From Rhodothermia bacterium (GTDB lineage: Bacteria; Bacteroidota; Rhodothermia; Balneolales; Balneolaceae), in assembly GCA_030427885.1 (NCBI GenBank), contig JAUICM010000002.1, positions 372,001 through 436,000 on the forward strand: DNA of 64,000 nt, in the 5' to 3' direction. The translations under genes and the position numbers were made by a program. A model generated the notes under the pieces. It worked only from the letters and a program-made list of their open reading frames with translations, did not search any database and was not told the DNA's origin. The first letter of the stretch is position 1; each line of letters begins with the position of its first letter. Below are positions 3,435-41,396 of the stretch, one piece after another.

Positions 3435-3471
3435 TAAGGAGTAACCCTGATTGTTTTTATGTTCAACCTTT

Positions 3472-21636: not shown

Positions 21637-21734
21637 TGAAAATATATTGCTGAAAACCTAAGAGTGGGGATTATACAAAAATTGACCGACTTAACGCTAT
21701 TGGATGAATTTTTTAAGAAAATTCTAAAACAAAA

Positions 21735-21764
21735 AAAGGCAACCAAGTAAACTTGATTGCCTTT
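21735..21764 (-). terminator. tRNA-Gly-type downstream hairpin, copy A
   Basis: An imperfect hairpin with outer arms AAAGGCAA/TTGCCTTT and an inner AAGT/ACTT match. It follows the tRNA remnant at 21774-21816 on the minus strand and is nearly identical to the hairpins at 22091-22120 and 22449-22478, the last of which follows the intact tRNA-Gly. Confidence 0.7.
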
Positions 21765-21773
21765 GTCCTTTCA

Positions 21774-21816
21774 GAGCGAGAAACGAGACTTCCCGAATTC
21801 TCGGGACGACCCCAGC
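21774..21816 (-). pseudogene. tRNA-Gly 3'-half remnant A with palindromic T-arm replacement
   Basis: Compared with tRNA-Gly at 22488-22560, plus-strand positions 21774-21790 match the tRNA 3' end and 21807-21816 match the variable/T-arm side. The 8-nt T-loop region between them is replaced by the 16-nt inverted repeat TCCCGAATTCTCGGGA (21791-21806). The match ends 1 bp before the GIY-YIG stop codon. Confidence 0.8.
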
Positions 21817-21817
21817 T

Positions 21818-22078
21818 TTATAATTCGTTTTCTTCAGAATCTATACATCTTTCAAGGAAATCCCTGCTTTTTTGCTTTTTGATAAACCGTTCTCTTCTTA
21901 ACCCCTCGGTTTTGGTTTCATAAGTTTTGAGATATCTCAATTCCCATGGAGCTCCGGATCTTGTTGATCGTGTCCAGCCTTCGTTATGCCTTTGCAAACG
22001 TACTTCCACCCCGACACCAGTTGACCCGATGTAATAGCGATCATTTATCCGACTATATAAAATATATACCTGATACAT
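21818..22078 (-). CDS. GIY-YIG nuclease-like protein (copy 1)
   Basis: With the start at the ATG 22078 the product is 86 residues, MYQVYILYSRINDRYYIGST, a typical single-domain GIY-YIG (UriC/YhbQ-like, UPF0213 relatives) protein. It has the VYIL-x10-YYIGST core, LQRHNEG with the catalytic-region Arg/His, and a C-terminal Glu-x4-KKQKSR motif. The longer reading upstream translates the hairpin and tRNA remnant and is unlikely. It is 65 percent or so similar to copy 2 and is flanked on both sides by pieces of tRNA-Gly DNA. The family often has DNA-cutting activity, but a role for this stand-alone group is not established. Confidence 0.85.
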   Translation of the reverse strand: MYQVYILYSRINDRYYIGSTGVGVEVRLQRHNEGWTRSTRSGAPWELRYLKTYETKTEGLRRERFIKKQKSRDFLERCIDSEENEL

Positions 22079-22090
22079 ATCCCTAAATAA

Positions 22091-22120
22091 AAAAGGCAAC
22101 CAAGTAAACTTGATTGCCTT
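22091..22120 (-). terminator. tRNA-Gly-type downstream hairpin, copy B
   Basis: Hairpin AAGGCAA (22093-22099)/TTGCCTT (22114-22120) with the inner AAGT/ACTT pairing. It sits between tRNA remnant B and the start of GIY-YIG copy 1, 12 nt upstream of that ATG. Confidence 0.7.
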
Positions 22121-22129
22121 AATCCTTAT

Positions 22130-22172
22130 GAGCGAGAAACGAGACTTCCCGAATTCTCGGGACGACCCCAAC
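22130..22172 (-). pseudogene. tRNA-Gly 3'-half remnant B with palindromic T-arm replacement
   Basis: It has the same organisation as remnant A: GAGCGAGAAACGAGACT (22130-22146) matches the tRNA 3' end, the T-loop section is replaced by TCCCGAATTCTCGGGA (22147-22162), and CGACCCCAAC (22163-22172) matches the tRNA again. It abuts the stop codon of GIY-YIG copy 2. Confidence 0.8.
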
Positions 22173-22174
22173 TT

Positions 22175-22435
22175 TTATAGTTCATTCTCTTCAGAAACTA
22201 CTAGCCTTTCAATAAATACTCTACTTTTCTGCTTCTTAATATGTTTCTCCCATTTTAAGGCTTCGGATTTAGAGTCAAATGATCTAATATATTTCAACGA
22301 CCACGGAATACCCGGTTTCGTTGATCTGGTCCACCCTTCATTATGTCTTTGCAAACGTAAAACCGCTCCTACTCCTGTTGAACCGATGTAGTAGCTGTCT
22401 TTTCTTTTACTGTATAAAATGTATACCTGATGCAT
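22175..22435 (-). CDS. GIY-YIG nuclease-like protein (copy 2)
   Basis: With the start at 22435 it encodes 86 residues beginning MHQVYILYSKRKDSYYIGST, a single-domain GIY-YIG protein close to copy 1. Both end SEENEL and both are followed at once by a tRNA-Gly 3' remnant and hairpin. It lies directly downstream of the intact tRNA-Gly and its hairpin, 14 nt from that hairpin, with no separate promoter visible. Expression by read-through from tRNA-Gly is likely. The two genes look like the outcome of a tandem duplication of about 357 bp. Confidence 0.85.
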   Translation of the reverse strand: MHQVYILYSKRKDSYYIGSTGVGAVLRLQRHNEGWTRSTKPGIPWSLKYIRSFDSKSEALKWEKHIKKQKSRVFIERLVVSEENEL

Positions 22436-22448
22436 ATCATTAAATAAC

Positions 22449-22478
22449 AAAGGCAACCAAGTAAACTTGATTGCCTTT
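22449..22478 (-). terminator. hairpin downstream of tRNA-Gly, copy C
   Basis: AAAGGCAA (22449-22456) pairs with TTGCCTTT (22471-22478) and an inner AAGT/ACTT stem. It lies 9 nt after the tRNA 3' end on the minus strand and before GIY-YIG copy 2. The U run is weak, so read-through is plausible. Confidence 0.65.
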
Positions 22479-22483
22479 GTCCT

Positions 22484-22560
22484 TAAGAGCGAGAAACGAG
22501 ACTCGAACTCGCGACCCCAACCTTGGCAAGGTTGTGCTCTACCAACTGAGCTATTCTCGC
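22484..22560. repeat. island flank: 77-bp direct repeat, left copy (att site containing tRNA-Gly)
   Basis: The 77 bp TAAGAGCG... to ...TATTCTCGC are identical to 41397-41473 in the same orientation and contain the whole tRNA-Gly gene. Sequence identity ends sharply on both sides. This is the expected trace of site-specific integration, with the crossover inside the repeat. Confidence 0.85.
22488..22560 (-). tRNA. tRNA-Gly (anticodon GCC), left copy
   Basis: The minus strand folds into a complete cloverleaf of 73 nt: acceptor GCGAGAA/TTCTCGC, D arm GCTC/GAGC, anticodon arm CAACC-TTGCCAA-GGTTG with anticodon GCC, and T arm GCGAG-TTCGAGT-CTCGT; the discriminator base is U. CCA is not encoded. 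It is identical to the copy at 41401-41473. Its 5' flank belongs to the island, so its expression depends on an island promoter, while its 3' flank is the chromosomal GIY-YIG array. Confidence 0.95.
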
Positions 22561-22588
22561 GGGCGCGATTTTAGCAGGTTATTGAGAC

Positions 22589-22608
22589 TTCTCAGTATAA
22601 TCTCAGTA
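22589..22608 (+). repeat. probable integrase arm-site repeat, left end
   Basis: The 20 bp TTCTCAGTATAATCTCAGTA occur here, 29 bp inside the left att repeat, and again at 41300-41319 near the right end in the same orientation. Each contains two TCTCAGTA units 11 bp apart, the usual look of arm-type binding sites of tyrosine integrases. Confidence 0.65.
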
Positions 22609-22636
22609 ATCACGTCATAATCTAAGGTAATTAGAT

Positions 22637-23773
22637 ATGGCAAGCCTCATAAAATCCGGTAATAAATTCTACATCCAATTTTACAACAAAACCAAGCAAC
22701 CAAAACAGAAGCAGATCCCTACAGGTTGCACTTCCAAAACAGCGGCTCGAAAAGTATTACACAGAGTTGAAGCAGAATATGTAACTGGTGAATTCGATCC
22801 TTGGAAGAAAGTGGTGCAATCAGAACCTTTGTACAACCTGCTTTCCGAAATAATTGAACTCTATATTGAAGAGAAATCGTATACAAGTTGGAGTAAAACC
22901 ACTATCCACAGCAATGGTAAACTATTTAAGAAGATCTCTAGAATCATCGGTCACTATCAACTTAGCGAACTTACAATTGAACCATTCAACGAGTTCATCA
23001 ATGCTGATAAGAAAGCACATGCAACCCGAGTAGGTTATAAAGCAAAGCTATCCGGCTTTTTAAACTGGGCTATCTCGAACGGATATTTTCAAATTGACAC
23101 GCCTATCGTTCTGAAGATTAACTCCACATCTTCAACTCAAGAGAACAACATCAATTATTTCACCAAGGATGATATTGAAACTTTCACTACTTATATCAGT
23201 GGCGTAGTGACTAAAGACTTAGAAACTGGAAACCAAACAAACCGATTCAATGCTATGTGGCTGGTCGATTTTATCCATTGGCAACGCTTATCAGGAATGA
23301 GGCTTTCAGAAACCTTGAATCTCAGAGCTGGCGATATAAATACTCAGACCTGGGAAATAACCATTGGGAATGATCACTTCGTCACTAAAAGTAAGAAGAA
23401 GCAGATATTGCCTATTGAAAGTGTAGATCCACTGAAAGAGATAGCCAGGAAGAAACTCGCCGAATGCTCTTCTGACCATGACCGACTATTTGGTCATTCT
23501 TGCAGGAGACATACAAACCGGCTTTTCAATAAGTACTTGAAGAAAGCCTTACCAAAGAAAACCTACCTGAACATTCACAGCCTCAGGCATACCTGTTGTA
23601 TTGAACTCCTCAGGGCAGGGGTACCGATCTACACTGTCCAACGCTGGCTACGCCATGCAGATGTTAAGACCACTCAGCGCTATGCAGACTTGCTGAATAT
23701 GGATATTAGCGAGGAAGTTGGGAAAGTATTTAATCAGCAGAATATTCAGAAACGCCTTCTAAGTAGGTATTAA
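22637..23773 (+). CDS. int: tyrosine recombinase / phage-type integrase
   Basis: The 378-residue protein has an N-terminal arm-binding-like segment (residues 1-55), a SAM-like core-binding domain (about 65-155) and a catalytic domain with Arg222 in LSGMRLSETLNLR, Lys/His box, HSLRH (His314, Arg317), His340 in WLRHADVKTTQRY and the nucleophile Tyr349. It is complete. It begins 76 bp from the tRNA-Gly copy, the standard position for an integrase that recombines into that tRNA. It would carry out integration and, with a directionality factor not recognised here, excision of the 22561-41396 island. Confidence 0.96.
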   Translation: MASLIKSGNKFYIQFYNKTKQPKQKQIPTGCTSKTAARKVLHRVEAEYVTGEFDPWKKVVQSEPLYNLLSEIIELYIEEKSYTSWSKTTIHSNGKLFKKISRIIGHYQLSELTIEPFNEFINADKKAHATRVGYKAKLSGFLNWAISNGYFQIDTPIVLKINSTSSTQENNINYFTKDDIETFTTYISGVVTKDLETGNQTNRFNAMWLVDFIHWQRLSGMRLSETLNLRAGDINTQTWEITIGNDHFVTKSKKKQILPIESVDPLKEIARKKLAECSSDHDRLFGHSCRRHTNRLFNKYLKKALPKKTYLNIHSLRHTCCIELLRAGVPIYTVQRWLRHADVKTTQRYADLLNMDISEEVGKVFNQQNIQKRLLSRY

Positions 23774-24365
23774 TTGTCTTATTCTTAATACGATCAGTTA
23801 ATTTTAGACTTCCTTTAGTAGTCCTATCTGTCCAATAATGACCTTGAAGTTCATTTGCAGGATCACCATTAATGTTCAGTATGAAAGAACCGTAATGAAT
23901 TTCACTCCGAACACCTTGTAAATTTATATCTGGCTCATTCCTATATACTACGGCGAGCTTATAAAGACCATCATCTTCTCTTTCAATAGTATGTGTGATT
24001 GATTTGGATCGGGATTCCTTCGTGAACATTCGAAAGCTCAAAAATGTGAGTGTTTGCCGAATTACTACATACCCAATGATTGGATCAATCTGTTTTCCTG
24101 TATTTGGATCAACCCAACTACTTTGTAATTCCATTTTCCATGTGCCTCTAAGGTCCGGTCTCTTTACATACCAATTCTTGAATACATTCCAAGACCATGC
24201 ATACTTATTAAAAATAAGTGCAATGCTTGTTATAGCTGAAACGACTATCCCAAATGGCTTAATAAATTCGGAGGAAAGCACCGGGTTCCCTTGAACCCAT
24301 AGAGTAACTAACCAAACGATAATTGTTAGTCCTATGAATGATGAAATATGTAATCTAGTAAGCAT
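23730..24365 (-). CDS. cap15: CBASS membrane effector, Cap15-like
   Basis: Starting at the ATG 24365, which overlaps the CD-NTase stop as TGATG, the product has 211 residues: two membrane helices (about 8-25 and 35-53) and then a soluble beta-rich domain beginning KRPDLRGTWKMELQ. Two helices followed by an 8-strand barrel and a DLRGTW-like entry describe Cap15, the effector that oligomerises on binding a cyclic oligonucleotide and disrupts the inner membrane to abort phage infection. The partner CD-NTase is directly upstream. The 3' end overlaps the end of the integrase gene by 44 bp on the opposite strand. The assignment rests on layout and context, not on a database match. Confidence 0.75.
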   Translation of the reverse strand: MLTRLHISSFIGLTIIVWLVTLWVQGNPVLSSEFIKPFGIVVSAITSIALIFNKYAWSWNVFKNWYVKRPDLRGTWKMELQSSWVDPNTGKQIDPIIGYVVIRQTLTFLSFRMFTKESRSKSITHTIEREDDGLYKLAVVYRNEPDINLQGVRSEIHYGSFILNINGDPANELQGHYWTDRTTKGSLKLTDRIKNKTINTYLEGVSEYSAD

Positions 24366-25270
24366 CAGTCGAACCCCACATAATCCCAAGCATCACTAAT
24401 AAATTGATGTGCACTTTCCCTTGTCCATGGCTGAGAAGAACGGAAAAGATATTTAAGTTCACTGACTTCACCCCATTCACTGCATTTAGAATCATTAATA
24501 GTATTATTGAACAAATATACCAGAGCTCTCCTTACATCACTAATATAGCTGAAACCTGTGAATTCACTATTGGGTACATTCCATACAAGACATTCAATTA
24601 AAAAGCTTGGCGCTTTTTTTGCAGATAAAACCCCATTTTCCGCCATCTCATTTGAGAGTGTCTTCAGGATTCGGACTATTTTTTTATAACGCATATTAGT
24701 TTGTCGATTTTTTTCAACACCATTCTGATAATGTTGCTCAGGCCAGTTTCTAATCATAGGAGGTTTATAATTATCTGGAATCATTTCAACGCCTGACAAA
24801 TATTTACTTGTACCTGTGTATCTTCTATGTTCAAAAAAAGCTGCCACATCCGCTTCAACTCGGTATGTATTTTCACTTATATCAAAGGACTTACTTCCTC
24901 TTGATACATTTACCCTTCCGAACTTTGCTACTAATGCCTCTTCTAGTTCGTTTTTGAATATCTTATATGTATATGTCGCTGGCTGATGTCCATGATATTG
25001 CTCCATTAGTGCCTTAACATTTTCATCTGGGTAATCTGGGAAGAATGTATCATAACATAATACACCGATATCGACATCGCTATCCTTGCGTACGTTTACT
25101 CTATTTCGGTATGAACCCTGAGTAAAAACTTTAATATCTCTGCGCTTCAATTTCTCACTTGATCGTATTGCTTCCCTAATAAGTCGCTCTGCATTTTCTG
25201 CTCTCTGCTGTTCGGTTTGACTAGGGCCAGAAGCCCAACCCGAAAAAGAACTCTCCCAATCTCTCGCCAT
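24365..25270 (-). CDS. CBASS cyclic oligonucleotide synthase (CD-NTase)
   Basis: The 301-residue protein (ATG at 25270; an alternative GTG lies 1 codon upstream) contains the nucleotidyltransferase motif GSYRNRVNVRKDSDVDIGV with the metal-binding Asp pair (D66 and D68 in the GTG numbering) and a third Asp in YRVEADVAAFF (about D142). The GS...DxD arrangement and about 300-residue length match the CD-NTase family, which makes cyclic di- or trinucleotides when phage is sensed. The product type is not readable. It overlaps the Cap15-like effector gene downstream and the small SANT-like gene upstream, forming a three-gene operon. Confidence 0.88.
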   Translation of the reverse strand: MARDWESSFSGWASGPSQTEQQRAENAERLIREAIRSSEKLKRRDIKVFTQGSYRNRVNVRKDSDVDIGVLCYDTFFPDYPDENVKALMEQYHGHQPATYTYKIFKNELEEALVAKFGRVNVSRGSKSFDISENTYRVEADVAAFFEHRRYTGTSKYLSGVEMIPDNYKPPMIRNWPEQHYQNGVEKNRQTNMRYKKIVRILKTLSNEMAENGVLSAKKAPSFLIECLVWNVPNSEFTGFSYISDVRRALVYLFNNTINDSKCSEWGEVSELKYLFRSSQPWTRESAHQFISDAWDYVGFD

Positions 25271-25473
25271 CACTTTCTCCTATTATAGGGTGACTGGTTA
25301 GTTGGTTTCAACGAGACATTCAGATCTGAAGCTTTGGATCTTACTGAATTTTCAGTTCTGCCCAACTTGAGCCCAATTACTCTGGTAGGTGTATTTACTT
25401 TAGCAAGCTGTTTTAGCTGTTGCTCGTCATTTTTCGACCATTGCTTACCCGAATTTCGATTGTACTTCGCCAT
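25270..25473 (-). CDS. small SANT/Myb-like HTH protein upstream of CD-NTase
   Basis: The 67-residue basic protein contains WSKNDEQQLKQLAK-x8-VIGLKLGRTENSVRSKA, a short helix-turn-helix resembling a SANT/Myb-type DNA-binding domain. Its stop codon overlaps the CD-NTase start (TGATG), so it is translated with the CBASS genes. It could regulate the operon. Similar small proteins are widespread and not specific to CBASS, so a direct role in defence is not shown. Confidence 0.75.
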   Translation of the reverse strand: MAKYNRNSGKQWSKNDEQQLKQLAKVNTPTRVIGLKLGRTENSVRSKASDLNVSLKPTNQSPYNRRK

Positions 25474-25539
25474 GATATTTGTCCGGTTAGTTAATGTTAG
25501 ACCAATGAAAAGCGAACTCCTTACAAAATAATTTGAAAG

Positions 25540-25550
25540 ACTAGCCCACT
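25540..25550 (+). repeat. 11-bp direct repeat, left of restriction module
   Basis: ACTAGCCCACT occurs here and at 30236-30246 in the same orientation, framing the 25567-30233 segment that carries the hypothetical gene and the type III system. It could be a trace of module exchange, or chance. Confidence 0.35.
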
Positions 25551-25566
25551 AAGCCACTGGAGATTT

Positions 25567-25926
25567 TTAAATCAGCTCATAAAATCTTAATCCATTGTTT
25601 TCTAGTGTCGCATAACCAACTAACTCATCCTCATAGAATACCTCAGCAAATCGGCTTTGATTGTCCTGATTAACCTCAATTTTCTTAGGATTCATTTGGT
25701 GTGTTTCAACAAACCTGTTTATCCAGGTATTGAAATCAGTCTCTAAAGAACCCTTTAGTTTCCTGACTTCTTCGTTGATAGCCTGCTCTACTATTTTTGA
25801 TAGATCTTTCATCGCTTCATAAGTTGTTTTAAATCTGAATTTACCTATAACAATAATCATGCCATCATGCACATATTTCTTATATATACCCAACGGTTTT
25901 GCCAGATATGCAGGCATGGCAGACAT
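25567..25926 (-). CDS. hypothetical protein
   Basis: The 119-residue product starts MSAMPAYLAKPLG and has no signal peptide. It contains an amphipathic helical middle (KDLSKIVEQAINEEVRKLKG) and a beta-rich C-terminal third. I do not recognise a family. It is transcribed divergently from the type III methyltransferase, with an 85-bp gap in between, and lies beyond the CBASS operon on the same strand. A role as an anti-restriction or regulator protein is possible but only because of its position. Confidence 0.5.
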   Translation of the reverse strand: MSAMPAYLAKPLGIYKKYVHDGMIIVIGKFRFKTTYEAMKDLSKIVEQAINEEVRKLKGSLETDFNTWINRFVETHQMNPKKIEVNQDNQSRFAEVFYEDELVGYATLENNGLRFYELI

Positions 25927-26011
25927 TTAAAATCTTAGTGCTTTCTACTGTATCGTCCATTTCCTATAATCAGCTGTTATTCTGACAGATAAATACTAAC
26001 AGACGAGCTGA

Positions 26012-27601
26012 ATGCCCACACTACATTGGATTGGTAAAGAAAAAGTCATTAATCACCACCGGGATGTACCTTATAGAGTGCTGGAACATCAATATGGATT
26101 TGATGCTGAGAGCGGAGAAGTAAAAGTACCAACCAATAGTGGAAATAAAATTATTCACGGAGACAATCTTGAGGCGCTGAAAAGTCTGCTTCCTGAATAT
26201 GAAGGAAAGATAAAATGCATTTACATCGATCCCCCTTACAACACAGGGAATGAAGGCTGGGTGTACAATGACAATGTGAACCATCCAAAAATTAAAAAGT
26301 GGCTGGGTGAAGTTGTAGGGAAAGAAGGAGATGATTTAAGCCGCCATGATAAGTGGCTGTGTATGATGTATCCTCGTCTAAAATTGCTTTCCAAATTTTT
26401 AAGGAGTGATGGATCAATTTGGATATCAATTGATGATTCGGAATTACATTCAATGAGAATGATTCTTGATGAGGTTTTTGGGAGAAGAAATTTTATTGCA
26501 TGCAATGTTTGGCAGAAAAGGTATTCTAGGGAAAATAGAGAAGCTATTGGCGATTCCCATGAGTACATACTTGTTTACTCAAAGAGTCCTGAAACTTTCA
26601 AAGAAACTCGAAATAAATTGCCATTGGGAGACAAACAAAAGAAAATTTATAAAAACCCAGACAATGACCCTCGTGGAGATTGGCAGTCTGTTTCATTAAC
26701 TGCCCAAGGATTTAGACCAAATCAGATGTATGAGATTATAGCCCCTTCAGGTATTAAGCACTTACCACCTGAGGGACGCTGCTGGGGCATGATCGAAAGT
26801 GAATTTCAAAAGTTAGTAGAAGACGATAGAATTTATTTTGGTGCAAATGGAAAAGGTGTTCCAAGGGTTAAAAAATATTTGTCTGAAGCGGAAGGTCTTG
26901 TACCATGGACATGGTGGCCACATGAAGAAGTTGGCCATACAGATGAGTCGAGAAAACAGATCCAACATATATTTGGTTCCCAAACGATCTTTGACACCCC
27001 AAAACCCACAAGATTACTCGAAAGAATATTTCACATTGCTGGGGATAAAGATGCAATATTTCTTGACTCATTTGCTGGTTCAGGAACTACTGCACACTCA
27101 GTATTAAATTTAAACTCGGTCGATCATGGAAATAGAAAATTCATTTTAGTTGAAATGGAAGACTATGCTAATGCTGTTACAGCAGAAAGAATTAAGCGAG
27201 TGATCAAAGGTTATGGAAAAAGTAAAAACAAAATTAATGGAATAGCTGGATCATTCGATTTCTATGAATTGGGGCAACCATTATTTAAAGAGAATGACTT
27301 ACTAAATGAGGAAGTAAGTGAGCGTAAAATAAGAGAGTATATTTGGTATAGCGAAACCAAAACTGCGTATTCTAGCTCGGCTGAGCATCCTCATTTGCTG
27401 GATTCTAAAGATGGTACCAGCTATTACTTTTATTATGAGAGGGATTCTTTAACTACACTTGATCATGAGTTCCTTGAAACTATAGAAGATAAGGCAGATC
27501 AATATGTGATCTATGCGGATAACTGTCTGCTCTCAAAGAAATTTATGCAGGAGCATAACATTGTGTTCAAGAAGATCCCACGAGACATATCGAGGTTTTG
27601 A
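26012..27601 (+). CDS. mod: type III restriction-modification DNA methyltransferase (Mod)
   Basis: The 529-residue protein is an amino-DNA methyltransferase of the beta class: the catalytic DPPYNTGN motif (residues 73-80) precedes the SAM-binding LDSFAGSGTT (351-360). The variable middle (about 160-300), including SVSLTAQGFRPNQ, would hold the target-recognition domain. The stop is one base from the res start. Together they make a type III R-M system in which Mod gives specificity and methylates N6-adenine. The specific recognition site cannot be deduced. Confidence 0.95.
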   Translation: MPTLHWIGKEKVINHHRDVPYRVLEHQYGFDAESGEVKVPTNSGNKIIHGDNLEALKSLLPEYEGKIKCIYIDPPYNTGNEGWVYNDNVNHPKIKKWLGEVVGKEGDDLSRHDKWLCMMYPRLKLLSKFLRSDGSIWISIDDSELHSMRMILDEVFGRRNFIACNVWQKRYSRENREAIGDSHEYILVYSKSPETFKETRNKLPLGDKQKKIYKNPDNDPRGDWQSVSLTAQGFRPNQMYEIIAPSGIKHLPPEGRCWGMIESEFQKLVEDDRIYFGANGKGVPRVKKYLSEAEGLVPWTWWPHEEVGHTDESRKQIQHIFGSQTIFDTPKPTRLLERIFHIAGDKDAIFLDSFAGSGTTAHSVLNLNSVDHGNRKFILVEMEDYANAVTAERIKRVIKGYGKSKNKINGIAGSFDFYELGQPLFKENDLLNEEVSERKIREYIWYSETKTAYSSSAEHPHLLDSKDGTSYYFYYERDSLTTLDHEFLETIEDKADQYVIYADNCLLSKKFMQEHNIVFKKIPRDISRF

Positions 27602-27602
27602 C

Positions 27603-30233
27603 ATGGAGCTAAAACCATATCAACAAAATGTATTGGATGATCTTGAGCTCTATCTGGAGTATGTGAATAAGGATCGGGATTATGCCAAAGCTTTCAACCG
27701 TTTTTGGGAAGATAAGATTGGCAAGTACAATCCTATTACCGGTGATGGGATGCGCCCTTACAAAGATAATGTTCCGGGAGCTGTTCATACCTGCATTAAA
27801 GTTCCCACTGCCGGAGGGAAAACCTTCATTGCGGTAAATGCGCTAAGTACGATATTTGACGCTTTTGATACGAATCATGCTAAAGCAGTTGTATGGCTTG
27901 TACCCTGGCGAAATTTATTGGATCAGGCATATAATGCTCTTTCAGATCCTGAGCACCCGTACCGGCAACGACTTAACAGCTTATTCAATCACAGAGTTGA
28001 GGTGTATAAGAAAGAAGATTTATTGCTAGGCTCTAACTTCAACCCAACTGTTGTTCAGGAACAGATCAGTATTTTTGTAATGAGCTTTGCCAGCTTAAAA
28101 GCTAGTAGAAAAGCAGATCGTAAAGTGTTCGATGAAAATGAAAACTTAGCAAGTTTTATTGATAGCTATGAGAGTTTGAGTCATGTTTTACCAGATTCAG
28201 ATGAAACTTCTGCCATTAATGTAATTCGAAGTCTCAACCCGGTAGTGGTGTTAGATGAAAGCCATAATGCCGAGACGGACTTAAGTGTCGAGATGCTTCA
28301 AAACCTGAATCCTAGTTTTATTCTGGATCTCACTGCTACACCAAAGGATAATAGTAACATTATAAGTACCGCTTCTGCTCTGGCATTAAAAAGAGAGCAC
28401 ATGGTGAAGCTGCCTGTTATTGTGTATAACCATCATGATAAGAACGAGGTAATTAATAGTGCGTTACACCTCCAAAATAAACTTGAACAATTAGCTATTG
28501 AAGAACATAAAGAGGGTGGAAAATACATTCGACCCATTGTGCTGTTTCAGGCCCAGGCCGATAGAGATGACGACTCTACCACGTTTACGAAAATCAAAGA
28601 AAAGCTCTTAGAACTACAAATCCCGGAAGAGCAGATTGCTATAAAAACAGCCAACATCAATGAGCTTGATGGAGTAGATTTGATGGCTAAAGACTGCCCG
28701 GTACGCTATATCATTACAATCAATGCGCTTAAAGAAGGTTGGGATTGTCCATTTGCTTATATATTAGCTTCCCTTGCTAATCGATCCTCAGCTGTGGATG
28801 TAGAACAGATACTTGGCCGGGTATTAAGACAGCCCCATGTACAACGTCATAAAACCCCACTACTTAATTTATCTTACGTACTAACTGCATCTACTCAATT
28901 CGCCGAAACGCTGGAGAATATTGTTGAAGCGCTTCAAAATTCGGGGTTTAGTAAGAGAGATTACCGTAAGAAAAGTATTACTGACACAGTTGATAAAGTT
29001 ACACAAGACCCATTAGAACAATTGGTCTTGACCCCGCCTGAAGAAAAAAAGAAAAATGATGTAGCTGAAGATATAGATACAACAAAGGTTCGGTTTCGAC
29101 CAAGCAATATCGAAGATGAGAATACAGACCCAATTGTTACCGATATTGAAGAAACAGCACTCAAAGAAAGCGAAGAATTTGATCAACAGATCCGAAATAC
29201 AGAAGACACAATAGCCGAATCATTATCTGATATCCCAAATGCAAAGGTGAATATGTATCGAATGAATGATCACTTCAAGGAACAAGCATTACAACTTGAA
29301 CTGCCTCAGTTTTTTATTGAGGTACCAGGTAATTCGTTGTTTGGTACTGAATCCAACAAGGCGCTCTTAACTCAAGAATCCTTACTTAAGGGATTTAAGC
29401 TTGGAGCACAAAACATAGAAATTGATTTTAAACAGTTGCAATCTGAGTTGTATCAGGTTGATGTAAACGCTAGTGAAACAACTCCTTCATTCCAAAGAAT
29501 TGAAGGTGATCAGGTTCGTGAATCACTGATAAAATATATTGTTTCAAAGCCCAGAGAAAGCCAGATACGGGACATTTCATTTCAGCTCATCCAACTTATC
29601 GGGAATATGTATCCGATAGCAGACCAGGAGATCAAAACCTATGTTGATAGGATTCTGAATGAGTTGAATAGTGAAGAGCTAATCCATTGTCTGCAACACA
29701 GATATACCTATAAGGATTTAATCAAGAAGAAAATACGGACATTAGCAGATGAGTATGCAGAGTCAGAATTCAAGAAGAAGATTGATACTCGAAAGATTAC
29801 AGCTGAACCTAATTTCAAATTAAACGAAAGTATTACTCCCGGCAACCTTGCACCTTCTATTTCATTTTCATTGTATGAACGAGAGGCATCGATAAACCGT
29901 TTTGAACAAAAAATTCTGGAAAGTATTCATGCTCTTGATAATGTAGTGTTCTGGCACAGAAACCTGGAAAGAGGACATGGTTTTGCAATCAACGGCTTTA
30001 AGAATAACCATTATCCAGATTTCCTTATCCTGACTAATAAAGGGAATGTCATACTAATCGAAACAAAGGGTGATGACCGCGATAATTCAGATAGTATCGC
30101 TAAGAACAAGTTGGGCAAGAAATGGGCCGAATTAGCTGGACCTGATTATCACTATTTCATGGTTTTCGATAATAACGCAATCGAAGATGCCCTGAATGCT
30201 AACCAAATTAGAGAGATAGTTGAGGCGCTTTAA
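27603..30233 (+). CDS. res: type III restriction enzyme Res subunit
   Basis: From the ATG at 27603 the protein has 876 residues. It contains an SF2 helicase core with Walker A PTAGGKT (68-74), DESH (218-221) as motif II, LKEGWDCPFAYILASL and QILGRVLRQP in domain 2, and a C-terminal PD-(D/E)xK nuclease with D806 in HYPDFLI and E820-x-K822 in IETKGDDR. It forms a complex with Mod and cuts after two convergent sites are bound. An in-frame longer start inside mod is possible but would add residues out of the conserved alignment. All expected domains are present and apparently intact. Confidence 0.95.
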   Translation: MELKPYQQNVLDDLELYLEYVNKDRDYAKAFNRFWEDKIGKYNPITGDGMRPYKDNVPGAVHTCIKVPTAGGKTFIAVNALSTIFDAFDTNHAKAVVWLVPWRNLLDQAYNALSDPEHPYRQRLNSLFNHRVEVYKKEDLLLGSNFNPTVVQEQISIFVMSFASLKASRKADRKVFDENENLASFIDSYESLSHVLPDSDETSAINVIRSLNPVVVLDESHNAETDLSVEMLQNLNPSFILDLTATPKDNSNIISTASALALKREHMVKLPVIVYNHHDKNEVINSALHLQNKLEQLAIEEHKEGGKYIRPIVLFQAQADRDDDSTTFTKIKEKLLELQIPEEQIAIKTANINELDGVDLMAKDCPVRYIITINALKEGWDCPFAYILASLANRSSAVDVEQILGRVLRQPHVQRHKTPLLNLSYVLTASTQFAETLENIVEALQNSGFSKRDYRKKSITDTVDKVTQDPLEQLVLTPPEEKKKNDVAEDIDTTKVRFRPSNIEDENTDPIVTDIEETALKESEEFDQQIRNTEDTIAESLSDIPNAKVNMYRMNDHFKEQALQLELPQFFIEVPGNSLFGTESNKALLTQESLLKGFKLGAQNIEIDFKQLQSELYQVDVNASETTPSFQRIEGDQVRESLIKYIVSKPRESQIRDISFQLIQLIGNMYPIADQEIKTYVDRILNELNSEELIHCLQHRYTYKDLIKKKIRTLADEYAESEFKKKIDTRKITAEPNFKLNESITPGNLAPSISFSLYEREASINRFEQKILESIHALDNVVFWHRNLERGHGFAINGFKNNHYPDFLILTNKGNVILIETKGDDRDNSDSIAKNKLGKKWAELAGPDYHYFMVFDNNAIEDALNANQIREIVEAL

Positions 30234-30235
30234 CC

Positions 30236-30246
30236 ACTAGCCCACT
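30236..30246 (+). repeat. 11-bp direct repeat, right of restriction module
   Basis: Second copy of ACTAGCCCACT (see 25540-25550), starting 3 bp after the res stop. Confidence 0.35.
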
Positions 30247-30281
30247 TAAATAATGTTATATACCTATCTGTACTTAAGCTA

Positions 30282-30305
30282 AAAGAGAAGCTCTCACCTC
30301 TCTTT
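30282..30305. terminator. terminator between res and the convergent lipoprotein gene
   Basis: AAAGAGA (30282-30288) and TCTCTTT (30299-30305) form a stem with a 10-nt loop between two convergent genes. Confidence 0.6.
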
Positions 30306-30311
30306 GTTCAA

Positions 30312-31331
30312 TTAATCCTCATTTGTAGAATACTTAATATCTCTTTCTATCATGTAGGAAGGTTTCTCATCAGTGAAAAGAAGTAATTGGGTCCAGTTCC
30401 CATATTCGTCGAACTTATATTCATAGGTTCCGGTAGCGATAAGATTTTGAGCTTCCTCATTGAACTTGTACTCCCCATTTTCCCAATACCTATGATAGCT
30501 AACCAAGTCTTGTTGAATCACTAGTCCTGTTGTATCATAATCATAAATCACGAAGCCTTTGGTATTCATGTCCGGGAGATAAAAAATGTCGCTGTAAACA
30601 GTACCGGTTTTATTGTAATTGAACTCGTGACTGGAATCTAATGCACCAGTTGGATTATAGATCTCTCTTTTCACCAACTTATTTTGGTCATCATATGAGG
30701 AACTTATTTTTATTCGTGTCCCCAAATCAGGGAAATAAGTATTCTCTTCAATAAGATTTCCTTTTTCATCAAAGTCATATGTCATTTTAATTGTTACTAC
30801 GCTGTCGGCATTAACTTCTCGAATCTCAGTAGCATTGAGATCCTTATCGTAACTATAAAGTATCTGCGCAATTTGTGCCCCCTCTTGGTCGGTCTTAATC
30901 GCCTCCCTGATAGTTCCATTATCACGGTACTTAGAAACTGTTTTAATTCTGGAGCCATCCTTCTTATACATAAACAGAGTTTGTTCAACCTTTTTCGTTT
31001 CCGAAGCATAGGTAATAACTCTGCTTTCGATTCTATTTCCTTCAGCATCATAAGACCAAAGTACAGTAGTACATCCACTCTCATTGAAAGCACTATAGAA
31101 TTTTTCATATTTATGGAAAGCTATAAATGTTGCCACACCTAATTCATTTCCTTTATTCGGCTCTCCAAACTGCTCATTTAGTGTGAATAAGCTTTGTTGA
31201 ATCGAGCTTACAGGCCCACTTAGATGTATTTCTTCTAAATCTGAGCACCTGCTGGGTTCTTGAATATTATTTGGAGCGCAAGACAAACTGAGTAGCATCA
31301 GAATGCCTAGTAAACTGGTAAATTTGTTCAT
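30312..31331 (-). CDS. lipoprotein with RHS/wall-associated-like YD repeats
   Basis: Starting at the ATG 31331 (339 residues) gives a lipoprotein signal with LLSLSC at about residue 17; the longer frame translates a palindromic operator and is unlikely. The rest consists of repeated strands with Tyr-Asp/Asn and Lys-x-Glu-x motifs (YDAEGNRIESR, YDDQNKLVKREIYNPTG, YKFDEYGNWTQL), the pattern of RHS-like or wall-associated repeats. It is likely anchored at the periplasmic or outer-membrane face. It is divergent from the XRE regulator gene and shares its operator region. Function is unknown. Confidence 0.7.
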   Translation of the reverse strand: MNKFTSLLGILMLLSLSCAPNNIQEPSRCSDLEEIHLSGPVSSIQQSLFTLNEQFGEPNKGNELGVATFIAFHKYEKFYSAFNESGCTTVLWSYDAEGNRIESRVITYASETKKVEQTLFMYKKDGSRIKTVSKYRDNGTIREAIKTDQEGAQIAQILYSYDKDLNATEIREVNADSVVTIKMTYDFDEKGNLIEENTYFPDLGTRIKISSSYDDQNKLVKREIYNPTGALDSSHEFNYNKTGTVYSDIFYLPDMNTKGFVIYDYDTTGLVIQQDLVSYHRYWENGEYKFNEEAQNLIATGTYEYKFDEYGNWTQLLLFTDEKPSYMIERDIKYSTNED

Positions 31332-31359
31332 AGTATTTGGTTTTAAAGGGTTAAAAGAT

Positions 31360-31377
31360 TGCACAATATATTGTGCA
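31360..31377. promoter_or_regulatory. palindromic operator between the lipoprotein and XRE genes
   Basis: TGCACAATATATTGTGCA is a perfect 18-bp palindrome located 29 bp upstream of the lipoprotein start and 34 bp upstream of the XRE regulator start. Small XRE proteins typically bind such dyads and repress their own and the divergent promoter. Confidence 0.6.
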
Positions 31378-31410
31378 TAGTCAAGCTTAGAATTACCTGA
31401 TACTTGGGGC

Positions 31411-31635
31411 ATGAAAACCAAGGATGAAATTCAGGCTGTTATTGGATTGAATGTGAGAAAAGCGAGAGAGGCTATGGGTATCTCACAATTCGATCTAGCT
31501 CTTGAAAGCGAACTTCATCGAAACATGATTGATCTAATCGAGAGAGGTCAAACTATGCCTACAGTTTATACCCTATTGAAAGTTGCAAAAGCTCTTAACA
31601 CTTCAATCGAAGCTTTAGTAAAAGGAGTAGACTAA
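31411..31635 (+). CDS. XRE-family transcriptional regulator
   Basis: The 74-residue protein is a single helix-turn-helix domain of the Cro/C1 (HTH_3) type: GLNVRKAREAMGISQFDLA, then ESELHRNMIDLIERGQTMPTV and LLKVAKALNTSIEAL. The length matches controller (C) proteins of R-M systems and small phage repressors. Just upstream is the palindrome at 31360-31377, a probable binding site. It lies within the island between the R-M operon and the replication genes, so it may time the expression of either. Confidence 0.88.
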   Translation: MKTKDEIQAVIGLNVRKAREAMGISQFDLALESELHRNMIDLIERGQTMPTVYTLLKVAKALNTSIEALVKGVD

Positions 31636-31638
31636 AAA

Positions 31639-31656
31639 GGAGGCCCGAAGGCCTCC
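31639..31656. terminator. terminator after XRE regulator / convergent gene
   Basis: GGAGGCC (31639-31645), CGAA loop, GGCCTCC (31650-31656): perfect 7-bp stem with an A run on the left. It separates the convergent XRE and DUF669-like genes. Confidence 0.8.
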
Positions 31657-31657
31657 C

Positions 31658-32170
31658 TCAACTAGTCACGCCATTAGCTGAAAACTCTTCAGGAGTCTGA
31701 TAGTTTACTCTTTCTATTACCCTTGTATAGGTTCCAGAAGAAGTTAGCTCTTTATAAGCCACTAGCCCCCTGGAATTCTTGTACGGCAAAACAGACTCTA
31801 TATTGCTGTACACTTTTCCTTCATCCACCTCATTATGCACGACCAGAATGTTACAGCTCATGCCAATGTATTCTTCCAGATCCACACCTTCGCTTAGTTC
31901 AGCAAGTGTGAATTTCCGATTTCTGAATCGTTCGAGATCTTTTCGAAGATTGCTCTTCTCGTGCAAGCTCCACGTATAGCGCTTCACCAGTATGAACGGT
32001 TTACCTTCCTCGTCCATCAGTTGGGTTTCAAAGCACAATGACAGCTTGTGTTTGGTGCCAAATTTCGACTCCTGCTCACCAAGATCCACAGCGTCCACTA
32101 GTATGGCTGCATGGAGTCCTTCTGGACAAAGTGGGAATTCTTGTGGTTCATCTTTTACAATTAGTGGCAT
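31658..32170 (-). CDS. DUF669-like / phage SSB-associated protein
   Basis: The 170-residue protein starts MPLIVKDEPQEFPLCPEGLH and has the pattern of phage proteins of the DUF669/single-stranded-DNA-binding group (AILVDAVDLGEQESKFGTKH, LSLCFETQ, RNRKFTLAELS). It ends the operon that begins with the DUF932-like gene and overlaps the end of the YqaJ exonuclease gene by 10 bp, a typical partner set for phage recombination. The exact function is not certain; an annealing or ssDNA-binding role is the most likely. Confidence 0.55.
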   Translation of the reverse strand: MPLIVKDEPQEFPLCPEGLHAAILVDAVDLGEQESKFGTKHKLSLCFETQLMDEEGKPFILVKRYTWSLHEKSNLRKDLERFRNRKFTLAELSEGVDLEEYIGMSCNILVVHNEVDEGKVYSNIESVLPYKNSRGLVAYKELTSSGTYTRVIERVNYQTPEEFSANGVTS

Positions 32171-33096
32171 AAAAACCTCCTTGTTTTAGTTTTTGTTAAG
32201 TATTTCTTGTATAGCTCAGGGTGAGCCTTACGAAACTCGCCGGTATTAAGCCTGCTCATCACACTAGACTTCCAGCTAACCAGAGTCTTGCCGGCAAGTA
32301 CAATGCGTTCCGCGCTTCCAAGCTTGTCCTGAAGTTTGGTTTTCAGATGTTCTTCCATTCGGATTAGATCATCTTTTCGGTCTCGAACCTGTTTAAGCTC
32401 GCCGTATAGTTCCATGACCAGAGGAGTAGCCTCCAGAACTATACCATCCTGTGAATTAGGGAACAGAATAAGCGTATCCTCACCGTTAATAGGTTCAGGC
32501 TGTTTGCCCTCGATCATATGGATTTGCCACCAGCTGATGAGCTTGCTCATATTCTCGGCGATCAAATCATCATCACGCTGTATAAGTACTGGGTCATGGA
32601 AGATGCAGGTGTCTCTTTCATAGCATTGAATCCAAGCCTGGGAAAAGCCGGTTATTCCAAGATAATGTTGAACCTGTAAAATCCATTCTCTAGGGTATTC
32701 ACCATCTAGAGCTTTAAGTCTGTGACTGGTGGTAGTTTTCAGCTCTAATACAGCTGTGGATTCCAAACCCTTCTCAGAATCGGCGAGTACCATTCTATCA
32801 ATGTTAGCCCTCAAAAATGAGTGCTCTTTTGATTCGTAGGTCTTATTTACTTGCCGGGTTTTTAGCCCGGTAGTTTCTTCAAAATGAATGGCCAGAATCT
32901 GTTCGAAGAAATGACCGAATCTTAGGATTGGTGTTTCTTCAATAGGTGGAAGTACTCCTCTTTTTCGGAGCCATAGTTGAAGTGGAGTTGAGTAGGGATT
33001 CTCGCCGAGAATCGTAGCTACGTCACTTCCTCCGATGTAGTTTGCTCGCTCCTCAACCCATTGGGGGGAAGGAAGCTGTGACTGCAAAGTTTTCAT
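32161..33096 (-). CDS. YqaJ-family phage recombinase exonuclease
   Basis: The 311-residue protein opens with WVEERANYIGGSDVATILGENPYSTPLQLWLRKRG, the YqaJ viral recombinase signature, followed by the conserved nuclease residues in FGHFFEQILAIHFEE, RANIDRM and VLELKTTTSHRL. YqaJ proteins are lambda-exonuclease-like 5'-3' exonucleases that create single-strand tails for annealing. It is followed by a DUF669-like protein and preceded by two very small frames and a DUF932-like gene in the same direction, which together look like a phage-derived recombination module. Confidence 0.88.
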   Translation of the reverse strand: MKTLQSQLPSPQWVEERANYIGGSDVATILGENPYSTPLQLWLRKRGVLPPIEETPILRFGHFFEQILAIHFEETTGLKTRQVNKTYESKEHSFLRANIDRMVLADSEKGLESTAVLELKTTTSHRLKALDGEYPREWILQVQHYLGITGFSQAWIQCYERDTCIFHDPVLIQRDDDLIAENMSKLISWWQIHMIEGKQPEPINGEDTLILFPNSQDGIVLEATPLVMELYGELKQVRDRKDDLIRMEEHLKTKLQDKLGSAERIVLAGKTLVSWKSSVMSRLNTGEFRKAHPELYKKYLTKTKTRRFLCH

Positions 33097-33128
33097 AGTG
33101 GGTTAGTGAGATAAATTATTAGAAATAA

Positions 33129-33156
33129 AAAAGCCCTCAGGAATCTGAAGGCTTTT
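33129..33156 (-). terminator. hairpin between the 38-residue ORF and the YqaJ gene
   Basis: AAAAGCC (33129-33135) pairs with GGCTTTT (33150-33156), with an inner CAG/CTG. It overlaps the end of the small frame at 33137-33253 and may attenuate transcription into the YqaJ gene. Confidence 0.5.
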
Positions 33157-33253
33157 CGGGTTGGTTTTGTTTGGGTGGGTCTGGAAAAAAGAATTTGAGT
33201 ATCTCTTTCACTAGTTCCGCACTGGCTTCTATGAGCCTTGTTGGATCGTTCAT
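33137..33253 (-). CDS. short peptide, 38 residues, function unknown
   Basis: This frame has a very strong ribosome-binding site, AGGAGG 8-9 nt before the ATG at 33253, and encodes 38 residues starting MNDPTRLIEASAELVKEIL with a Pro/Gln-rich tail. It lies in the operon between the 21-residue frame and the YqaJ gene. The ATG overlaps the upstream stop as ATGA. A strong RBS and overlap suggest it is translated. The peptide has an amphipathic helix and no recognised family. Confidence 0.5.
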   Translation of the reverse strand: MNDPTRLIEASAELVKEILKFFFPDPPKQNQPEKPSDS

Positions 33254-33315
33254 GATTTCTTACCTCCTGTTACGATGATGATGATCACCTTGATAATTAG
33301 CTTTGGTAGATTCAT
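33250..33315 (-). CDS. short hydrophobic peptide, 21 residues
   Basis: ATG at 33315 opens a 21-residue frame, MNLPKLIIKVIIIIVTGGKKS, one base after the stop of the DUF932-like gene. Its stop overlaps the following start as ATGA. It resembles a small membrane peptide with a short Ile/Val-rich segment. The frame also carries the AGGAGG site for the next gene in its last codons, so it may serve as a coupling leader instead of a functional peptide. Confidence 0.35.
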   Translation of the reverse strand: MNLPKLIIKVIIIIVTGGKKS

Positions 33316-33316
33316 G

Positions 33317-34060
33317 CTAGTTCAGATACAGTCCTTTGGTAAGGGTATGAAGCTGACTATGGCGCTGGATAATTTTATCAACCGGCGAGCTTTTTAAGGC
33401 TTCCGTTGCACAGTTGTACCCTGCCCAAAGCGTATCCACTTCAAATTCAGGATGTGATGGCTTCCAAAGCTCTTTGAAGGCAGCTGTGGATTGCGTAGGA
33501 GAAAGAATACCCTCACCGGTGAGTAGCCCGATAAACTCGTACTTCTCTTGCTGGTTCATGGCACGTTCTTTCATGGCCTGCACATCCTGGCTGATTTGAT
33601 GGAAGTTATGCTGGCTTCTGTATATGGCCGTTACTATCTGATCATGCAGATCCTCATGCATGTCTTCGCCCTGATGCTTTCTCATTACTTTGATGTCTCC
33701 AGAAAAGACAAGATTATCGCAAACAAGAACGGTACTCCCTACAACCAGCCCAGCAGCCATCGATTTGTTGTATGAATTCCGCAATCCTATGGCGACTTTG
33801 AGTTCTTCGTTTGGTCCAGGATTAATCTTCCGGTAAGTAATTACTCCGAACATTTTTTGGCCATCTGATGATAGAGCATAGCTGTCTCCATCAAAGCGAT
33901 AGCCCTTGAGTAAGTCAGAGGCAATGGTCAGAATGTTTACTGCAAAATCATAGTGATTAAGCGGAGTATAAGATTTCGTTTTCTTGGGTTCTGGAATAGT
34001 TAAAAGCTGCTCAAGCGAAACTCGAGATGAACCACAGTGGGTTAAGAGTTGATTTGTCAT
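33317..34060 (-). CDS. DUF932-like phage/plasmid protein
   Basis: The 247-residue protein starts MTNQLLTHCGSSRVSLEQLL and has the beta-rich core FGVITYRKINPGPNEELKVAIGLRNSYNKS with AGLVVGSTVLVCDNLVFSGDI, typical of the DUF932 family found in phages and plasmids. Its function in those elements is unknown. It is the first gene of an operon with two micro-ORFs, a YqaJ exonuclease and a DUF669-like protein, and is divergent from the RadC-like gene. The 131-bp gap holds two inverted repeats. Confidence 0.65.
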   Translation of the reverse strand: MTNQLLTHCGSSRVSLEQLLTIPEPKKTKSYTPLNHYDFAVNILTIASDLLKGYRFDGDSYALSSDGQKMFGVITYRKINPGPNEELKVAIGLRNSYNKSMAAGLVVGSTVLVCDNLVFSGDIKVMRKHQGEDMHEDLHDQIVTAIYRSQHNFHQISQDVQAMKERAMNQQEKYEFIGLLTGEGILSPTQSTAAFKELWKPSHPEFEVDTLWAGYNCATEALKSSPVDKIIQRHSQLHTLTKGLYLN

Positions 34061-34079
34061 TTGATTTGGAATAAGAGTT

Positions 34080-34099
34080 CAATGGCATTATTACCATTG
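34080..34099. promoter_or_regulatory. inverted repeat in divergent promoter region
   Basis: CAATGG (34080-34085) and CCATTG (34094-34099) are 6-bp arms around an 8-nt spacer near the start of the DUF932-like gene. Confidence 0.35.
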
Positions 34100-34149
34100 T
34101 TCTTATACCAAATAACGGTTCAAGTTGAGTAAAAATAGGGTATAAGAAG

Positions 34150-34170
34150 TATGAAGGGAAACCCTTCATA
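34150..34170. promoter_or_regulatory. 9-bp-arm inverted repeat in the radC/DUF932 divergent region
   Basis: TATGAAGGG (34150-34158), AAA spacer, CCCTTCATA (34162-34170): a perfect inverted repeat centred 32 bp upstream of the RadC-like ATG. It may be an operator or a small hairpin in the 5' leader. Confidence 0.45.
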
Positions 34171-34191
34171 ACCCTAACCAACCCTACCATC

Positions 34192-34644
34192 ATGCCAACC
34201 ATAGCAGAGGTATCTCTCAAGTATCAGTCCCAGAGTACTTTTGATGAGAAGCCTACCATTACCAGCCCGGAACAAGCTGAGTCCTTTCTTCGATCTATCT
34301 GGGATACTGACACTATTGAACTCAGGGAGGAGTTCATAGTTGTACTATTAAGCAATGCCAAGAAAGCTCTTGGCTGGAGTAAGATTTCGACAGGAGGCCC
34401 TAATGCAACTATCGTTCATCCCGCCACTGTGTTTCAGCTGGTTCTTCTTGGGAACGCTCATAGCATCCTGATTTGTCATAACCACCCATCCGGAAGACTA
34501 GAAGCCAGTACCGCTGATATCCATCTTACCCAGCGCCTAATTAAAGCCGGAAAATTGTTCTCTATTGAGGTAGATGATCATATTCTTCTTACTCGGGATA
34601 GCTACCTGTCCTTCAGAAAAGAAGGGCTAATGAAAGAGAGATAA
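34192..34644 (+). CDS. RadC-like JAB-domain protein
   Basis: The 150-residue protein consists of a JAB/MPN-like RadC domain: REEFIVVLLSNAKKALG with the conserved Glu, HPATVFQLVLLGNA, and the metal-binding signature ICHNHPSGRLEASTADI (His96, His98, Asp109). The N-terminal UPF0758 helix-hairpin-helix segment of full RadC is missing, as in the short forms carried by phages and integrative elements. It is close to a DUF932-like gene, an arrangement often seen on mobile elements; a role in anti-defence or DNA processing is inferred, not shown. Confidence 0.88.
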   Translation: MPTIAEVSLKYQSQSTFDEKPTITSPEQAESFLRSIWDTDTIELREEFIVVLLSNAKKALGWSKISTGGPNATIVHPATVFQLVLLGNAHSILICHNHPSGRLEASTADIHLTQRLIKAGKLFSIEVDDHILLTRDSYLSFRKEGLMKER

Positions 34645-34660
34645 CCCCTCATTTAACTTG

Positions 34661-35623: not shown

Positions 35624-35680
35624 ATTAAATAATTGTTTACAATATCTTTCCACATTATCCTTAACTAATTATAAATAATT

Positions 35681-35980
35681 ATGAAAAATTTCAAGAAACA
35701 TATTTTCATATTCTTAGGTATTTTCGTATTGATAGCATTAGACCTTCGGGTAACAGATGTGATACCTGGTGAAATATCATTTTCGGTTACTCAATCTGCA
35801 GAAGCAAAAATGTTTCGTGACCCACCAGTTGATGACTATGGTTGTTCTGATTTAAATGAAAATTGTAATAACCCACATGGAAGTTGCGGAGGTGCAGGTG
35901 GACCAGGTGCTTCTACTACTTGTGATATATGGTGCAATGGTGGACAATGGTTGTATTGTGATGGTTGGACTGGTGATTAA
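35681..35980 (+). CDS. small exported Cys-rich peptide
   Basis: The 99-residue product has an N-terminal membrane/signal segment (residues 7-22), a likely cleavage at SAEA|K (about residue 42) and a mature part with six Cys (55, 62, 69, 81, 85, 93) in a Gly-rich tail. Short exported peptides next to beta-propeller lipoproteins and thioredoxin-like proteins recall the NVEALA peptides of Bacteroides, but the sequence is not the same. It lies between two propeller genes and a CxxC protein, so three disulfides made by the neighbour are plausible. No function known. Confidence 0.6.
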   Translation: MKNFKKHIFIFLGIFVLIALDLRVTDVIPGEISFSVTQSAEAKMFRDPPVDDYGCSDLNENCNNPHGSCGGAGGPGASTTCDIWCNGGQWLYCDGWTGD

Positions 35981-36024
35981 AATATTTTTTAATGGAAATA
36001 TTTAACAATCAATTCAATTTTAGT

Positions 36025-41395: not shown

Positions 41396-41396
41396 C

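Follow-up and report, generated by a model that had tools for sequence, protein, structure and literature searches.

A tandem pair of GIY-YIG nuclease genes beside a tRNA-Gly gene as one case of a widespread, apparently undescribed family of units at tRNA genes in Bacteroidota

Introduction

The homing endonucleases known so far occur mainly in introns, inteins and phages. Among the tRNA-linked enzymes of the GIY-YIG class, SegB of the T-even phages makes its cuts within tRNA genes and gives rise to amplified tRNA-segB units, and the joint is formed by microhomology where the 5' end of the tRNA resembles the 3' end of segB (PMC13096335). The units described here are similar to this system in the GIY-YIG gene beside tRNA genes, the tandem tRNA-nuclease repeats and the kind of joint. 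However, SegB is phage-borne and its amplified copies keep a full tRNA, whereas the present units are chromosomal, encode a single-domain protein of about 86 aa, belong to clades specific to tRNA type, and contain spare tRNA copies which are truncated and disrupted by a hairpin.

Several other systems share single features with these units. The best sequence and fold matches of the protein are UPF0213/YhbQ and SLX1 (1zg2, 4xlg and 6seh), which to our knowledge have not been described in tRNA-linked units; SLX1 has further domains and a partner, SLX4. Integrative elements targeting tRNA genes also rebuild the complete tRNA and leave part of a tRNA displaced, but the present units of 320-400 bp have no integrase, and internal tRNA arms are replaced by hairpins in them. 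The rtT repeats of the E. coli tyrT locus are tandem repeats downstream of a tRNA gene and carry tRNA 3' ends, although we know of no GIY-YIG gene and no hairpin replacement in these repeats. REP palindromes and RAYT combine small hairpins with a single-gene nuclease-type enzyme (a tyrosine HUH enzyme), and their hairpins are found genome-wide and not in tRNA copies. The HUH criterion is not met here, since the protein is of the GIY-YIG type. No description of the present organisation was found in the literature searched, which was limited to open-licence PMC articles, so a description elsewhere is not excluded.

Results

Organisation of the array

The window, that is, the whole 64,000-nt stretch of Balneolaceae DNA analysed, carries on its minus strand, in this order, a tRNA-Gly(GCC), a terminator, a GIY-YIG gene, a tRNA 3' remnant, and then a second such set. 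The intact tRNA-Gly(GCC) at 22487-22560 is the upstream, functional-type copy of the array and now also bounds an integrated element of 18.8 kb at one end. It is followed by a terminator-like hairpin with a T-run (AAGGCAATCAAGTTTACTTGGTTGCCTT, 22446-22484), gene A (22175-22435), remnant 1 (22130-22175), a second terminator-like hairpin (22089-22127), gene B (21818-22078), remnant 2 (21774-21819) and a third terminator-like hairpin (21732-21770). The three terminator hairpins are near-identical and folded much better than shuffled sequences, with z scores of -7.4, -5.3 and -5.3, respectively. Direct repeats with a spacing of 357 bp were 72% identical over 300 nt, while the two remnants, 46 nt each, were 98% identical at a spacing of 356 bp. 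These distances confirmed the two tandem units of about 357 bp, each made of a hairpin, a GIY-YIG gene and a tRNA 3' remnant, which had been proposed in a first-pass annotation.

Comparison of the repeats with the tRNA showed that each remnant consists of tRNA nt 37-49, a palindrome and nt 58-74. In both of them exactly 8 nt of the T-arm (CGAGTTCG) are replaced by the 16-nt palindrome, between GGTCG and AGTCTCG. The palindrome of remnant 1 (TCCCGAGAATTCGGGA, 22147-22162, minus strand) has the same sequence as that of remnant 2 (21791-21806, minus strand), just as the annotation had stated. Only 0.01 occurrences of this palindrome, TCCCGAATTCTCGGGA, would be expected by chance in the window. 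The 17-mer GAGCGAGAAACGAGACT was found at 4 sites in the 4.15-Mb genome, all of them in the array or in the second tRNA-Gly copy described below, and the reversed-pattern control gave none. The window remnants folded no better than shuffles (z about -1).

The nuclease

Both window ORFs matched PF01541 (GIY-YIG), with E values of 6.7e-14 and 4.4e-14. The two proteins, each of 86 aa from the ATG (MHQVYILYS...SEENEL for gene A and MYQVYILYS...SEENEL for gene B), are 65% identical to each other and have SEENEL at the C-terminal end, consistent with the paralogues proposed earlier. The residues invariant across 14 diverse copies include Y16, G18, R27, H31 and E63. The AF2 model of the gene A product was confident (pLDDT 90.6), and its closest folds were UPF0213 BH0048 (1zg2) and SLX1 (4xlg and 6seh), with a weaker match to the catalytic domain of I-TevI; the profile search agreed, with UPF0213 and SLX1 as the best matches. 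One criterion for free-standing GIY-YIG homing endonucleases, a GIY-YIG catalytic domain with a conserved active site, is met by the window nuclease. Another of these criteria, a separate C-terminal DNA-binding domain, is not fulfilled: none was found in the 86-aa protein by profile, model or fold comparison, and the chain comprises one GIY-YIG domain with C-terminal helices.

Two possible origins were rejected. An intron-borne nuclease was set aside because the gene sits between tRNA copies and no Rfam intron family was matched in the window locus and 8 further loci, where the tRNA alone reached the gathering score; the criterion of a position outside introns and inteins is thus fulfilled as well. 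A phage or plasmid origin was set aside because the window protein had no match in IMG/VR (peptide-pattern scan), phage records or plasmid records. One weak phage match (E = 4e-4) was obtained with a protein of the tRNA-Ala type.

Distribution across Bacteroidota

A scan with a single protein gave four named loci. A profile built from eight Gly-linked proteins and searched against 394 Bacteroidota genomes detected relatives in 172 of them (E <= 1e-8). The regions around the best matches were taken for the locus survey, which means that selection was made by nuclease score and not by tRNA. A tRNA gene or tRNA remnant was present at 140 of the 149 distinct copies: 117 had an intact co-oriented tRNA within 450 nt, 23 had remnants only, and 9 had neither. 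The annotation would have been refuted by such genes lying in unrelated contexts without a tRNA, and these 9 copies fall far short of that. The linked tRNAs represent 11 amino-acid types (Gly, Asp, Ser, Pro, Ala, Val, Met, Asn, Leu, Arg and one Cys call), and the linked nuclease lineage spans twenty host families. Units of about 320-400 bp adjoin tRNA genes of many types, and many copies are decayed, with stops or as fragments. The window pair therefore appears to be one case of a widespread and apparently undescribed family of units inserting at tRNA genes across Bacteroidota.

The genome of the window contains 16 GIY-YIG regions, four of which are linked to tRNAs (two to tRNA-Gly, one to tRNA-Met and one, decayed, to tRNA-Pro); the other 12 genes have no tRNA within 1.5 kb. 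The tRNA-Met locus has the same layout as the window array and is composed of the tRNA, a terminator, a GIY gene, a remnant, a terminator and the start of another GIY gene, and the anticodon part of its remnant is replaced by TCCGCCGGCTGGCGGA. At the tRNA-Pro(ggg) locus (L025, C5:203176-203352), the adjoining GIY-YIG gene has an internal stop and is followed by a tRNA-Pro remnant with a TCCCTA..TAGGGA hairpin. Relatives with 54-60% identity were also seen in two metagenome bins, one labelled Ignavibacteria with a tRNA-Asp upstream (L175), and one labelled Woesearchaeota in which no tRNA was found (L174); the archaeal label may result from faulty binning.

Occupied and empty sites

Occupied and empty sites were compared between species within genera, with flank identities of 68-95%, and not between strains. 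The inserted DNA at tRNA-Gly was about 0.5-0.9 kb long. The GIY gene was its only evident gene, and no integrase was seen in the inserted units of these pairs or of the tRNA-Ala series described below. The closest pair, in which the flanks are 94-95% identical, consists of G107 (occupied) and G198 (empty) of one genus. The native tRNA-Gly of G107 ends at nt 26 and is followed by a hairpin. Next come a second copy of that stretch, some of it masked in the sequence data, and a complete tRNA-Gly with 91% identity; the GIY gene lies beyond a terminator, and after it a remnant with a hairpin runs into the native terminator. The native copy is broken here, and the diverged complete tRNA-Gly came in with the unit. 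In the pairs G033/G023, G293/G222 and G021/G222, the insertion lies directly after the tRNA and its native terminator, and G025 has only a lone remnant from which the gene is gone.

A tRNA-Ala series in another family gave 0, 1 or 2 GIY copies at one syntenic site within one genus, and the host terminator seen at the empty site was displaced at the occupied one to a position beyond the last remnant. Presence and absence at the same site in related genomes, a further criterion for free-standing homing endonucleases, is thus met. For both Gly and Ala, the intact tRNA did not differ in sequence between occupied and empty genomes; the tRNA belonging to the G107 unit differs. A recoded, cut-resistant intact tRNA was therefore not supported as the rule for either tRNA, and the immunity of the occupied allele that homing usually involves is left unexplained.

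Together, the tRNA association, the presence/absence pattern and the tandem arrays supported the proposal that a small unit targets tRNAs and duplicates in tandem, whereas the word homing remains an inference without cleavage or transfer data. We interpret the unit as a minimal selfish homing-type element living in tRNA genes, with a probability of roughly 60%; its cleavage and transfer are inferred.

Junctions and tRNA-type specificity

The distance from the nuclease stop codon to the next tRNA-like sequence had a median of 2 nt (quartiles -11.5 and 22) in the 121 of 162 copies where such a sequence was found, compared with 12 of 212 control stretches, and it was 30 nt or less in 100 of the 121. 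In the tRNA-Ala case, the stop codon TAG of the nuclease belongs to the tRNA sequence GGCTAGAGCG. The coding end for SEENEL/ENEL in the Gly case seems to resemble the tRNA 5' end GAGAATAGCTCAG, an inference from the letters of the two ends. Junctions of this kind between nuclease and tRNA are also seen where the tRNA-segB unit has been amplified in phage T6 (PMC13096335). The spare tRNA copy is truncated, with a hairpin in its anticodon, T or D arm. The earlier suggestion that the tRNA 3' end is the target had to be widened: the anticodon, T or D arm may also be the site of insertion and disruption, and the 5' half is duplicated in Ser and Arg loci.

On the nuclease tree, the tRNA type changed 24 times, as against at least 84 in shuffles, while the host family changed 46 times for the same rows, as against at least 72 in shuffles. 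The Pro-linked clade alone spans nine host families. One nuclease lineage thus keeps to one tRNA type across host families, with the reservation that the tree was built from 81 columns, has limited support and leaves many forks open.

Hairpins in the remnants

After exclusion of the tRNA's own arms, 81 hairpins flanked on either side by tRNA sequence were listed from the remnants. They stand in place of, or within, the anticodon, T or D arm, most often in the form TCCCGA-N-TCGGGA; the Pro-clade units mostly have TGGCGC-N-GCGCCA. The annotation is refined here too: instead of a single palindrome sequence there is a class of hairpins, and their type follows the nuclease clade.

These hairpins could themselves direct the element. 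The nuclease would then recognise the palindrome, by sequence and structure, and not the tRNA; hairpin and nuclease would be paired like REP and RAYT, and a cut of the donor at the hairpin would free tRNA-homologous ends that invade tRNA genes. We regard this as unlikely, although the following observations agree with it. The TCCCG type was found in 58 of 71 hairpins of the non-Pro clades and in 1 of 10 of the Pro clade (Fisher p = 1.6e-5; the rows are not phylogenetically independent). At L108, where a Pro tRNA is combined with a nuclease from a non-Pro clade, the hairpin is of the TCCCG type. The stems stay paired by co-variation despite their varying bases (64 distinct), and over the 371 kb that these loci comprise, 123 of 135 such hairpins are in contact with tRNA sequence. 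The fold is closest to UPF0213 and SLX1, and SLX1-like enzymes cut branched or hairpin DNA. A hairpin-directed nuclease would also explain why the intact tRNA needs no immunity. On the other hand, some remnants have no clear hairpin, and TCCCGA-N-TCGGGA occurs 3-61 times per genome in 20 Bacteroidota genomes (0-2 times for the reversed pattern), including genomes without Gly units, so that it may be a general repeat of the phylum.

Within the single genome G226 (loci L087 and L111), TCCCGCC was found at Asp and TGGCGC at Pro. Many of the genome-wide TCCCGA-N-TCGGGA hairpins are TCCCGATAGCTATCGGGA, and these hairpins are possibly a palindromic repeat family of their own. In the genome of the window, 9 of the 11 TCCCGA hairpins lie in unrelated contexts, so the palindrome as such is not peculiar to tRNAs; a simple genome-wide repeat was nonetheless rejected as the explanation, given the 123 of 135 hairpins in these loci that adjoin or overlap tRNA sequence.

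Tandem arrays and copy number

Two or more copies were present in 29 of 118 loci, with a range of one to seven copies per locus, and the tandem copies were identical or nearly so. The arrays include five units of 315 bp at a tRNA-Asp (L092), four of 322 bp at a tRNA-Pro (L149) and three of 323 bp before a tRNA-Ser (L152). Ser and Arg loci are mirrored, with 5' halves repeated upstream and the intact tRNA last. A copy number that never varies would have spoken against the annotation; instead, as well as this range across loci, the syntenic tRNA-Ala site varied from none to two within a genus.

Three unusual arrangements were also observed. Seven GIY-YIG copies with a spacing of 381 bp and the palindrome TCCGAAGCTTCGGA are found in L151 (oriented 1182-3674), where no tRNA is recognisable and the origin of the flanks is unexplained. 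At a tRNA-Asn (L038, oriented 200-1500), tandem units of about 130 bp contain a tRNA remnant and a terminator, with the GIY gene cut down to its first bases; they resemble non-autonomous deletion derivatives, and the series ends in one full unit. Arrays of 80-101-bp pseudo-tRNAs with a hairpin for the anticodon arm lie upstream of the intact tRNA in L153 (oriented 913-1430), L215 and L217, and the GIY gene is absent from the last two.

Arrays alone could arise if a GIY-YIG gene came to lie beside a tRNA by chance and was duplicated by ordinary unequal recombination, with no role of the nuclease in movement. It is generally known that tRNA-proximal regions are recombination hot spots, and the many decayed copies as well as the upstream pseudo-tRNA arrays, two of them without a nuclease gene, are in line with such passive duplication. 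We nevertheless consider it improbable, because it does not account for one nuclease lineage at about eleven tRNA types in twenty families, with a fixed junction, syntenic presence/absence and invariant catalytic residues.

The integrated element beside the array

A second tRNA-Gly(GCC), absent from the first-pass annotation, was found at 41400-41473 on the minus strand. It is identical to the copy at 22487-22560, and upstream of it is a promoter-like sequence common to other Balneolaceae tRNA-Gly genes. An integrase gene is located at 22637-23773. From this anatomy we infer that the 18.8 kb between the two tRNA-Gly copies is a separate integrated element using the same tRNA, which stands between the array and the host promoter side; the second tRNA-Gly, beside the host promoter region, is its other end and not part of the unit. 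Besides its tyrosine integrase, the element (22561-41399) contains genes for a CBASS-type cyclase (24365-25273) and an accompanying 2TM effector (23730-24389) and, at 26012-30233, a type III pair of methyltransferase and restriction genes.

This neighbour, inserted at the same tRNA-Gly, raises the question of whether the units are cargo or scars of integrase-driven elements, which do restore tRNA 3' ends. We think this very unlikely, since the inserted DNA is short with the GIY gene as its only evident gene, the anticodon and D arms are also disrupted, and 5' halves are duplicated in the Ser and Arg loci. Nor is there much to recommend a device serving the host, in which tRNA-like decoy RNAs or control of tRNA dosage would involve a nuclease acting on RNA: the remnants do lie within tRNA transcription units and the exchange of an arm for a hairpin keeps some tRNA-like outline, but the patchiness among congeneric species, the decayed copies and the isotype-specific clades look selfish, and the window remnants lack any folding advantage over shuffles.

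Discussion

For the homing-type element, the following mechanism is proposed. The unit is a free-standing GIY-YIG gene for a single domain of about 86 aa, placed between two copies or part-copies of the resident tRNA. The nuclease would break a tRNA gene without the unit, and repair against the donor copy, guided by homology in the tRNA 5' part, the tRNA 3' part and the terminator, would copy the unit in, much as SegB does in the T-even phages. The tandem arrays would then result from breaks, or from partial tRNA copies that recombine unequally. In the sequences a complete tRNA is kept, sometimes one supplied by the unit. The hairpin probably acts on the spare tRNA copy in one of three ways, by hindering its folding, by sparing it a second cut or by blocking the recombination that would remove the unit, and which of these applies is undetermined.

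Several observations weigh against homing. The intact tRNA is the same in occupied and empty genomes, so a site wholly inside the tRNA would be unprotected; there is no DNA-binding domain beyond the catalytic domain; and in the G033 and G222 pairs the unit is located after the native terminator and not inside the tRNA.

A more specific proposal, which we put forward only tentatively, is that these are phylum-wide chromosomal parasites of tRNA genes acting as a natural 'cleave and rescue' system. The 86-aa nuclease, together with its cognate hairpin, would break one specific tRNA gene, for which the element would bring a substitute, either half a tRNA or a whole one. If this were true, the element would be hard for the host to lose.

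The homing-type element is known in kind, as a free-standing homing endonuclease with SegB as its nearest relative in organisation, and the hairpin and replacement-tRNA features are new. A chromosomal, tRNA-specific family built from a single very small gene and parts of the host tRNA would rank with the smallest autonomous mobile elements, and it would account for many of the genes annotated as 'GIY-YIG nuclease family protein', and the partial tRNAs, that adjoin tRNA genes. The natural pairs of occupied and empty sites offer a direct test bed for homing, tandem amplification and tRNA replacement, and the correspondence of nuclease clades with tRNA and hairpin types provides a specificity code that is ready for use.
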